Below the pieces are notes generated by a model. The model saw only the letters and a program-made list of their open reading frames with translations. It ran no database searches and had not been told where the DNA came from. Source: Desulfotignum sp. (GTDB lineage Bacteria > Desulfobacterota > Desulfobacteria > Desulfobacterales > Desulfobacteraceae). Taken from it: DNA of 64,000 nt. Below are positions 32,296 through 42,631 of this stretch, one piece after another. Both the position numbers and the translations under genes were made by a program. The stretch covers positions 1 to 64,000 of the forward strand of contig JAABSA010000011.1 in assembly GCA_011390635.1 (NCBI GenBank). The letters are read 5' to 3'. The number at the start of each line of letters is the position of its first letter. Within the stretch, counting starts at the first letter, position 1.

Positions 32296-33300
32296 ATGAC
32301 AGAACACCCGGATTTGCATCAGCCCGTCATGACCATCGCTCACCAGGACATGGTGACGCTGCATGAGGATTTTACTGTTCAGCAGGCGCTGAACGACATC
32401 CGGTTACAGGGTGTTGGAGAAAAAATTGTCTATTTTTATGTGGTGAACACAGCCGGCCGGTTGAAAGGGGTGATCCTGACCCGGCGCCTGCTCACCACCC
32501 CCCTGGAACAGCGTATCTCCGAGATCATGATCAAACGGCTGATAACGGTTCCCCATACTGCAACCATCATGGATGCCTATGACCAGCTGGCGCATCACAA
32601 GCTGCTGGCGCTTCCTGTGGTGGATCCGCAGCAGCACATCCTGGGTGTGGTCGATGCCAGCACATTCATGGATGACACCTATATCAAAGACATTACCCAG
32701 AGAAGAAAAGAAAGACTTGAAATTCAACGGCTTCATACAAGGCTGAGAAGCATTCTCGATCATATGCGGGACCTGGTGCTGTCCTTTTCATACCTCGATG
32801 ATTTTGACAGGGACCGCATCGATGATTTTCCGTTTTTTGACGATCACCTTGTGGAGATCAACTCCTCAGCCCTGTCTTTTTATGACGTACCGGCATCTTA
32901 TATCCTGCACAAAAAAATGAGTGTGTTTGATTTTATTCATGACCTTTATAGAAAACGGATATTCGAACTCTCCCAGGACATGATCTATATTCTCAGGCCC
33001 GATGGACAGATTCTTGATATCAATCCGTCAGGCATCCGGCTTATGGGACTCAGCAGTATCGAAGACGCGCAACAGAGGAGCATCATTGATTTCACTGTTG
33101 ATCCGGTGGCCGGCAAAGCACTGGTCAAAGAGATCCAGTTCGAAGTGACTGACACAGGTTATTTTCTCGATGCAACGACCACTGCCGTTGAGGATGTCAA
33201 GCAGCGATTGAAAGAGATCAGAGACCAGTACTGGCGGTTGAAAAAAGTGTCTGATGGTCACGGAGGCGTCATTTACCAGAGAGCCACCCGGAAGAGTTAG
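32296..33300 (+). CDS. CBS-domain pair plus PAS-like sensor protein
   Basis: HQDMVTLHEDFTVQQALNDIR...GVILTRRLLTTPLEQRISEIM...VPHTATIMDAYDQLAHHKLLALPVVDPQQHILGVVD (CBS pair); DMIYILRPDGQILDINPSGIRLMGLS (PAS). ORF opens at 32221; ATG at 32296. Confidence 0.75.
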   Translation: MTEHPDLHQPVMTIAHQDMVTLHEDFTVQQALNDIRLQGVGEKIVYFYVVNTAGRLKGVILTRRLLTTPLEQRISEIMIKRLITVPHTATIMDAYDQLAHHKLLALPVVDPQQHILGVVDASTFMDDTYIKDITQRRKERLEIQRLHTRLRSILDHMRDLVLSFSYLDDFDRDRIDDFPFFDDHLVEINSSALSFYDVPASYILHKKMSVFDFIHDLYRKRIFELSQDMIYILRPDGQILDINPSGIRLMGLSSIEDAQQRSIIDFTVDPVAGKALVKEIQFEVTDTGYFLDATTTAVEDVKQRLKEIRDQYWRLKKVSDGHGGVIYQRATRKS

Positions 33301-39717: not shown

Positions 39718-40944
39718 ATGGCGCTACGGGTACAAAAATACGGAGGCACCTCTGTGGCGGATATCCAGCGGATATCCAGGGTGGCGGACCGGGTTGTAAA
39801 AGCCCATGATGCCGGTGACCAGGTGGTGGTCGTGCTCTCTGCCATGGCAGGTGTGACAGACAACCTTATTTCCCTTGCACGGCAGGCAGCAGAATTGCCT
39901 GACAAAAGGGAACTGGATGTCCTGCTTGCCACAGGAGAACAAACCACAGCGGCTTTGATGGCCATGCTCCTCAAATCCCGGGGATACAAAGCCAAGTCGT
40001 TTCTGGGATTCCAGGCCGGCATCCATACGGACCAGACACCGGGCAAGGCCCGGATCCTGGATATCGACGGTCAGAACGTGAAAAAATCGCTGGACCAGGG
40101 GTATATATGCGTGGTGGCCGGGTTCCAGGGAGCTGATCACAACGGCGACATCACCACCCTGGGACGGGGCGGGTCAGACACCTCAGCAGTGGCCATTGCT
40201 GCATCCTTAAAAGCGGATGTCTGTGAAATTTTCACCGATGTGGACGGGGTATACACTACAGATCCCAGAATCTGCGCAAAAGCCAGAAAAATTGACCGAA
40301 TTTCCTATGAGGAGATGCTGGAAATGGCCGTTTTAGGGGCAAAGGTGCTTCAGATACGGTCGGTGGACTTTGCCAAAAAATACAACATTCCTTTGCATGT
40401 CAGATCATCATTCAACGAGGAGGAAGGAACCATGGTCGTCAATGAAAGCGCTGATATGGAAAGCGCGGTGGTATCAGGCGTTACCTGTGATATGAATGAA
40501 GCCAGGATCACCCTGAAACGGGTACCGGACCAGCCCGGCATTTCTGCCAAGATTTTCGGCCCCCTGGCAGATGCTGAAATCATGGTGGACATGATTATCC
40601 AGAACACCCGAACCGGCGGAGAAACCGATCTTACCTTCACTGTTACCAAGGATGATTTTGCCCGGGCCCTGGAAATTACGGAGGCGGTGGCCAAAGAGGT
40701 AGGGGCTGAAGAGGTGCTCACCGCCACGGAAATTGCCAAGGTATCGGTGATCGGGCTGGGCATGAAAAGCCATTCCGGTGTGGCTGCCACCATGTTCAAG
40801 GCTTTGGCCGAAGAAAACATCAACATCCGGTTGATTTCCACCTCGGAAATCCGGATCTCCTGTGTCATCCTGGCCAAATATGCGGAACTGGCAGTGCGGG
40901 CTTTGCATACGGCATTCGGCCTGGACAGGCAGGATCTGGATTAG
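39718..40944 (+). CDS. lysC: aspartate kinase
   Basis: [26 protein letters not shown]...[40 protein letters not shown] domains. Confidence 0.96.
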
Positions 40945-41681
40945 ACGGACAGGGATCTGTCCAACGCTGTCTCTATTTCTTCTACCACCTTTCGGGCGGC
41001 AGCAGCAGGGTCCTGTGCATCCCGGATGGGGCGTCCGATCACCAGAAGATCGCTGCCCTGGGCTATGGCCCGGGCAGGTGTGGTGACCCGCTTCTGGTCA
41101 TCTTGCTTTGTCAGGGTCCATGCGGGGCGGATACCCGGGGTAACCGTCAGAAAATATTTTCCAAATCTTGTTTTGATGCCGGCAGCTTCCCCCCCTGAAC
41201 AGACCACGCCAGCGCATCCGGCATCATGTGCCACCTGGGCCCGCAGCATCACCAGTTTTCCCGGGTCTGCTGAAAACTGCTGTTGAAATCCCCCTTTGGA
41301 AAGGGTTTTTCCATCATTATCCGTGAGCAGGGTAACCCCCAGAACCCCGACTTTTTTGCGGGCACCCTGCACCGCCATTTCCAGCATTTTTACAGAGGAA
41401 CTGCAATGAACGGTTGCCAGATCAACACCCAGGTCAGCTACCCGGTCCATGGCCCGGAAAACGGTTGTGCCGATGTCGTGGAGCTTGAGATCCAGAAAAA
41501 TGCGGGCAGCGCTCATATCGCGTATCATGCGCACCGCTTCAGGTCCCTGGTGGATGAACAGTTCCAGACCGATCTTGAACATGCCCACATGGGGGTCCAG
41601 AAGCCTGACATAAGATTGTGCCTCTGCCATGGAGGGAAAATCCAGTGGAAATACAATATAATCCCTGCCTGATTTTTTCAT
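40941..41681 (-). CDS. pyrF: orotidine 5'-phosphate decarboxylase
   Basis: [34 protein letters not shown]...[30 protein letters not shown]. Confidence 0.96.
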
Positions 41682-41847
41682 TTTTCATTCCCTTGAATAC
41701 CATACCGGCGCCCGGCATTTCCACAAAATCATCAATTCTATGTTCCGATATACAAATCCCGTGTTCCGGCATACAATAAGATCCTGATTTTAGGGGGTAG
41801 CCTGCTGTTTGTCAACCAGGACAAAAAAAGACACTTACGCAGGCACA

Positions 41848-42009
41848 GCCCCGGGTGGTGCCCTGTGACCGGAACCGTCAGAGCCGGAGGGGCACACCAT
41901 ACATATCAGATCGGCAGAAGCGTATACAGCAGGCCAGTGTCCACCTTATGGATTTCACACACAGCAGCCCCGGAGGATCTCGGGCCGGGTACAGGGCACT
42001 ATCCGGGGC
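41848..42009 (+). ncRNA. candidate structured RNA (6S-like rod or ilvN leader; family unassigned)
   Basis: Arms 41848-41872 (GCCCCGGGTGGTGCCCTGTGACCGG) and 41985-42009 (CCGGGTACAGGGCACTATCCGGGGC) pair at 24/25 positions (21 Watson-Crick, 3 G.U on + strand). Inner helices GAG/CTC, GGGGC/GCCCC and CCATA/TATGG can nest inside. Confidence 0.5.
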
Positions 42010-42145
42010 GGCAGTCAGGCCGACAAACCGGCTGCTTGAAAATCCCTGACCCGATGTGCTGCATAACAAAGCAAAATCAGTGGTTCATTTTCCGGGTGCA
42101 ACGTGGTATATTGCACTGCCCTTGACTGCCCTTGAAAGGAGAATC

Positions 42146-42631
42146 ATGGAAACCAAAAAATACACATTGACCATGCTGGTGGAAAACGAACCCGGTGTGA
42201 CCGCCCGTATAACCGGTCTTTTTGCCGGAAGAGGCTATAATATTGAAACCATCTGCGGTGCACCCACCGCAAATCCCAAAATGTCCAGAATTACCATCAC
42301 CACCCTGGCGAATCCCCTGATGCTGGAACAATGCATGAAGCAGATCAAGCGCCTGGTCAATGTAATCAAACTGCGGGATATGACCGGAGAAGAGGCGGTC
42401 AAACGTGAAATGGCCCTGGTCTGTGTCAAGGCCAGGCCTGAAAACCAGGAAAAGATCCAGCATATCATCACAGCCTTTCAGGCAAAGATGTTGGACAAAG
42501 GGCAGGAACACTATATTTTTGAAGTCACCGGTGATGAACTCACCGTGGATGCCATGCTCCGGGAACTGGCACCTTTCGGCATCAAAAAACTTGCCCGTTC
42601 AGGGGTGCTTGCCCTGTACCGGGAATCCTGA
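42146..42631 (+). CDS. ilvN: acetolactate synthase small (regulatory) subunit
   Basis: YTLTMLVENEPGVTARITGLFAGRGYNIETICGAPTANPKMSRITITT ACT domain; RBS AAAGGAG before ATG 42146. Confidence 0.95.
   Translation: METKKYTLTMLVENEPGVTARITGLFAGRGYNIETICGAPTANPKMSRITITTLANPLMLEQCMKQIKRLVNVIKLRDMTGEEAVKREMALVCVKARPENQEKIQHIITAFQAKMLDKGQEHYIFEVTGDELTVDAMLRELAPFGIKKLARSGVLALYRES

Follow-up and report, generated by a model that had tools for sequence, protein, structure and literature searches.

A dispersed hairpin repeat carried by MITEs in Desulfotignum, with a probably co-opted copy between pyrF and ilvN

What is the long hairpin that occupies the spacer between the divergent genes pyrF and ilvN in a Desulfotignum sp. 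genome? The window analysed here is a stretch of 64,000 nt from contig JAABSA010000011.1 (assembly GCA_011390635.1). A first-pass annotation, made from its letters, had described positions 41848-42009 as a structured RNA with a function on the + strand, and had named a 6S-like RNA, another rod-type RNA, and a cis-leader of ilvN as candidates. Part of that description stood: the rod is conserved, and it leans towards the + strand. As to what it is, the rod belongs instead to a dispersed repeat carried by MITEs.

The rod itself was confirmed. By direct reading, 24 of the 25 positions in the two outer-stem arms form pairs on the + strand; three of these pairs are G.U, and the one position left over is an A.G mismatch. 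The + strand of the rod folded at -84.3 kcal/mol, compared with -63.9 +/- 4.1 for shuffled sequences (z -5.0, 0/200), and the fold of the - strand was far weaker (z -1.5), as the first-pass annotation had inferred. A covariance model, R1, was built from an alignment of 26 fetched long copies of the rod. It matched the rod at pyrF-ilvN with 129.3 bits (E 5.9e-29, this copy itself having been used in building R1), drew better limits for the conserved unit (41847-42012), and found this one copy only within the 64-kb window. Among the nested helices proposed earlier, GAG/CTC and GGGGC/GCCCC are backed by the 26-copy alignment, but CCATA/TATGG falls outside the family consensus. The claim that no convincing ORF covers the rod was borne out by the ORF list, which holds just mechanical small ORFs there, and peptide coding by the rod was dropped. 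The Rfam search proposed in the first-pass annotation, 6S RNA (RF00013) included, left the region without any match even at E 10. Coordinates are collected in Table 1.

Table 1. Features of the pyrF-ilvN spacer and its neighbouring genes (window coordinates)
Feature	Position	Strand	Basis
Putative pyrF (name from the first-pass annotation)	40941..41681	-	246-aa ORF
Predicted pyrF promoter TTGACA-17-TAAAAT	41787..41815	-	11/12 consensus match, kept in relatives
Long-form hairpin repeat (rod), conserved unit of the family	41847..42012	+	R1 match, fold z -5.0
Outer stem, 5' arm	41848..41872	+	24/25 pairs with 41985-42009; compensatory changes in the family
Conserved inner 5' segment (G)AACCGTCAGAGCCGGAGGGG	41872..41892	+	ACCGTCAGAGCCG almost invariant, 26 copies
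Variable top region	41893..41967	+	Aligns well only among pyrF-ilvN orthologues; missing from short forms
Conserved inner 3' segment (CCCCGGAGGATCTCGGG)	41968..41984	+	GGATCTCGGGCC almost invariant, 26 copies
Outer stem, 3' arm	41985..42009	+	24/25 pairs; 3 lineage C-to-T changes
Promoter-like block TTCATT-17-TATATT upstream of ilvN	42084..42112	+	Conserved, 12/12 aligned genomes
Putative ilvN (name from the first-pass annotation)	42146..42631	+	161-aa frame

A BLAST search of G000, the genome from which the window comes (98 contigs, 4.09 Mb in total), returned 57 matching pieces. With scoring confined to the 150 top candidates, R1 identified at least 27 long copies (~165 nt; E < 1e-23) in this genome, along with at least 22 short ones (~78 nt); both counts are minimum values. 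All 49 copies that were checked lay clear of called ORFs. The short copies correspond to the rod minus its top of ~85 nt, and their inner region reads GGACCGTCAGAT...ATCTCGGGCCGG. In the long copies, the inner loop ACCGTCAGAGCCG...GGATCTCGGGCC is asymmetric and conserved in sequence.

Several details of copy arrangement were recorded. Rods in opposite orientation occurred in pairs at L124 (2304-2470 - and 2655-2819 +), at L128 (913-1085 - and 1310-1474 +) and in G000 (C39:31169-31333 - and 32617-32782 +). The members were a few hundred to ~1,300 bases apart, sometimes with a short rod close by, and nested or hotspot insertion is a possible origin. Two long copies of G000, L010 and L017 (C52:22177-22342 and C20:60285-60451), share ~60 bases of near-identical 5' flank and differ in their 3' flanks; each lies <3 kb from a contig end. 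The flank of L038 (G000 C7:64735-64812) holds a separate hairpin, GTACTTTCCGCACCC...GTGCGGAAAGTAC, beside a short rod, which may be a terminator.

The stem covariation that the first-pass annotation had proposed to look for was strong. Across the 26 long copies, compensatory (both-side) changes were found at 14 of the 33 pairs, and standard pairs filled 98.1% of the cells, a value reached by 0/500 shuffles; slid-control versions of the stem were just 33-48% paired. The stem is maintained through compensatory changes, and secondary structure is conserved across the copies, as in repeats of the bcr1/ERIC/NEMIS kind. The arms vary and covary, and the base of the stem (AGCCCC...GGGGCGG) is conserved in sequence.

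Strand preference was estimated from G.U pairs, counted against A.C. The G.U to A.C ratio was 29:12 in relatives, 19:9 in the own genome and 33:20 in the short forms. Stem changes among the pyrF-ilvN orthologues numbered five to G.U, none to A.C, and one other; in the 3' arm of the window lineage, three C-to-T changes relative to the orthologues turned G-C pairs into G.U. The direction is consistent and suggests a lean of the hairpin towards the + strand. This lean is just suggestive, since related sequences enter the counts more than once, which makes them non-independent, and since the singletons of alignment A1 are near even (G.U 7, A.C 5).

Many long copies are carried in MITEs of ~264 bp, which end in inverted repeats CTGGATATTTGCYATAA (17 bp) and bear target duplications (TSDs). 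We scored the CTGGATATTTGC-end type in all loci fetched and found TSDs in 25 of 64 elements, compared with ~0.6 expected overall (7 bp, n = 10; 8 bp, n = 10; 9 bp, n = 5). Among the short copies, a second MITE type with unlike ends is frequent; these ends were read by eye as CAGGGCAATCGCATG and also noted as CAGGGCAATCGC. A third group of copies, which the window copy resembles, has neither set of ends and shares a 3' tail (about GGCATCCATGCCAACCGGTT). One hairpin core is thus carried by at least two MITE types with unrelated ends. The family as a whole is short, non-coding and dispersed, with terminal inverted repeats (TIRs) and TSDs, as is characteristic of MITEs. Insertions can also be read at single sites. 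In G007, the pyrF-ilvN spacer holds a fresh long element in the opposite orientation with a 9-bp TSD, AGAAAAGAC, and the copy at C39:32617 has an empty orthologous place in the JAIVHE genome, where no clean duplication is readable. In G000, CTGGATATTTGC also bounds three short elements (C25:25165-25320, C39:74532-74579 and C98:49758-49865), the smallest a near-perfect palindrome of 48 bp. These elements are too short for the long rod, and therefore the ends define a MITE family wider than the rod carriers. A check of 40 stretches around ends that stood alone or far apart, made for second ends and long ORFs, yielded no autonomous transposase with matching ends, in drafts that break at repeats; 10 ORFs from these stretches gave ordinary enzymes or nothing in a Pfam scan, and no transposase.

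The hairpin repeat family appears to be restricted to Desulfotignum-type sulfate reducers. Each of the other 12 genomes in the genus had R1 matches, between two and 65 in number (both strands counted); outside the genus, R1 gave two weak matches in 26 genomes (L054 and L055). Neither is counted as a relative, because the conserved inner motif is missing from both. L055, which comes from a different genus in the same taxonomic family (G014 C63, 1501-1582, - strand), is a palindrome with the base GGGGGGGCGGC, perhaps a distant cousin or chance (E 0.009). Among 85,462 species genomes, the exact core motif was found only in Desulfotignum MAGs and in one MAG labelled 'Desulfobacteraceae bacterium' (JAIVHE). 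It was absent from the viral contigs searched, and a phage origin of the hairpin was set aside.

Around the window copy itself (near 41.8-42.1 kb), neither MITE end was matched and a TSD could not be delimited; with neither mark at the copy, its transposition is inferred from the family. Orthologues of ilvN (83-94% identity) were present in 11 of the 12 other genus genomes. The spacer carries a long rod at the orthologous site in G002, G003, G005 and G006, all in the same orientation, and a short rod in G008 and G012, as well as in G011 according to the alignment. No repeat occupies the site in G001 or G010, G009 retains a scar only, and in G007 the rod is mostly lost and the inserted element gained. 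Any function of the rod would accordingly be dispensable, given the empty sites and the loss in G007. A second, short-type repeat separates rod from ilvN in G003 and G005, and G006 retains a remnant of it. The rod is placed between a strong predicted pyrF promoter and a weaker, conserved promoter-like block upstream of ilvN, which was read by eye rather than called by the scanner and has a weak -35 and a good -10. Should this block be the ilvN promoter, neither leader would contain the rod. Among the 24 long copies with gene calls on both sides (rough, hexamer-based calls), 13 lie between divergent and three between convergent genes, a weak signal because divergent spacers are longer. The ilvN-type small-subunit gene has no large-subunit gene preceding it, and a paralogue with 44% identity lies at C48:13596-14075.

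Sequence change in the pyrF-ilvN copy has been slower than in its siblings or in the neighbouring sequence. The window rod is 92.7-94.5% identical to those of G002, G003, G005 and G006, with no gaps in 165 bp. In the G000 comparisons, its flanks were 81-89% identical with many gaps (the left flank in G003 being unalignable), and identity at fourfold sites of ilvN was 0.68-0.73. Three other rods common to G000 and G006 had an identity of 0.801-0.858 with 7-14 gaps, and the pyrF-ilvN rod was significantly better conserved than these siblings (Fisher p = 0.0016) in a comparison that uses a non-random set of copies, those with flanks in hand, and few substitutions in draft MAGs. Copies shared with other genomes showed a wider spread (80-94%).

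We consider it likely that the rod is a copy of a Desulfotignum-restricted, MITE-derived dispersed hairpin repeat, co-opted at pyrF-ilvN as a cis element. Transposases acting in trans would have spread the copies, and the hairpin would be retained for what it does as a single strand of RNA or DNA, with the + strand the likelier one. Co-option at this locus is probable, because the copy has no MITE ends, lies between opposing promoters and changes slowly; here the hairpin would most likely act as a structured spacer between two promoters and less likely as a small transcript. A further-reaching version makes the core itself a selected functional module, an RNA or a folded single DNA strand recognised at its conserved base and inner loop. 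Two or more MITE families with unrelated ends would have captured it, and it would have spread in the genus and become domesticated in the divergent promoter region of pyrF-ilvN. We regard this as rather unlikely. It is doubtful, though quite conceivable, that the rod is instead a selfish or relic hairpin with no host function, its slow change being due to chance or to a low local mutation rate. The empty sites in G001 and G010 and the near-loss in G007 would fit such a relic, as would a spacer that tolerates insertions, given that several repeats struck it; the absence of indels and the 93% identity, set against indel-rich flanks at 81-89% and siblings at 80-86%, do not. Unlikely, too, is a multi-copy small regulatory RNA, in which rods would be transcribed on the + strand, with for example a protein-binding inner loop, and MITEs would merely spread the gene. 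Strong covariation of the stem, the conserved asymmetric inner loop, the + strand lean and the better + strand fold all agree with such an RNA, but the 5' flanks differ between pyrF-ilvN orthologues, with no conserved promoter just upstream; a scan of the locus recognised neither promoter nor terminator for a rod transcript, and the rod is absent from Rfam.

The remaining candidates fare worse. Movement of a REP/RAYT-type palindrome as ssDNA by a Y1 tyrosine transposase could account for an imperfect hairpin whose mismatch and bulge are conserved, and Y1 transposases are present in 12 of the 13 genomes. Yet no rod occurs within the ~1.5-kb flanks of 30 fetched Y1 genes, and TIRs with TSDs of 7-9 bp misfit movement of the IS200/IS605 type; we think this very improbable, and RAYT/IS200 was rejected as the mobiliser. 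An attenuator or riboswitch-like leader of ilvN, one of the original suggestions, would explain why the rod is on the ilvN strand, 137 bases upstream, and why long-form orthologues keep their orientation. It is nevertheless highly improbable, because the promoter-like block conserved in 12 genomes (with its weak -35) and, in some relatives, the second repeat or its remnant intervene between rod and gene. Moreover, the other ~48 copies adjoin other genes, and no terminator or anti-terminator was recognised. As for 6S RNA or another known rod-type ncRNA, the resemblance is in general shape only, and with ~50 copies of the rod in the genome, no Rfam match, and the genome's true 6S RNA at C23:50201-50388 (107.4 bits), there is next to no chance that this suggestion is correct.

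Read as a copy of a dispersed repeat, the conspicuous hairpin is explained without a new single-copy RNA. Because one core, maintained by compensatory change, recurs in carriers whose ends are unrelated, it offers a clean system in which to ask which single-strand function preserves structured repeats, and co-option can be tested at the unusually conserved pyrF-ilvN copy, which adjoins two housekeeping promoters. The open-licence literature searched gave nothing relevant on Desulfotignum repeats and no description of this structured MITE family, and in it we did not find described either one core in carriers with unrelated ends or a slowly changing copy fixed between promoters.

Among known systems, the closest parallels are small mobile repeats with long stem-loops. 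A survey of stem-loop repeats listed 92 families, 57 of them with a predicted common structure (PMC2267715). Correia/NEMIS is a small Neisseria MITE with TIRs and TSDs that exists in two forms of 107 and 155 bp, and its RNA has been proposed as an RNase III substrate (PMC2229807). The Desulfotignum repeat is alike in being MITE-carried, with a long stem-loop transcript expected, and in having two size classes that differ by an internal segment. It differs in its ends, in TIRs separate from the rod, in TSDs of 7-9 bp, and in one rod core, without an Rfam match, set between two unrelated sets of ends. ERIC (IRU), which has been linked to mRNA stability (PMC2229807), is an enterobacterial element of 127 bp with its own short TIR (PMC2229807, PMC2267715), and the Desulfotignum sequence is unrelated to it. 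The bcr1 repeat, which is mobile and confined to the Bacillus cereus group (PMC6542083), resembles the rods in lineage restriction, tens of copies per genome, mobility and a predicted common structure (PMC6542083, PMC2267715). Mobility of bcr is tied to TTTAT motifs, whereas the Desulfotignum rods have TIRs, TSDs of 7-9 bp and two carriers. GTAG/CGTC and RAYT-linked REPs likewise occur as scattered, imperfect hairpins whose stems come in many variants; however, they measure 20-40 bp with a GTAG/CGTC tag at one end (PMC3733652), and the rods are 78-165 nt long, untagged and away from Y1 genes. The 6S RNA shares a rod shape with asymmetric internal loops, but its covariance model finds no match in the rod, which is multi-copy and distinct from the true 6S locus. 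The Desulfotignum repeat is a new family of an established kind, the bacterial long-stem-loop MITEs represented by Correia/NEMIS, ERIC and bcr1.
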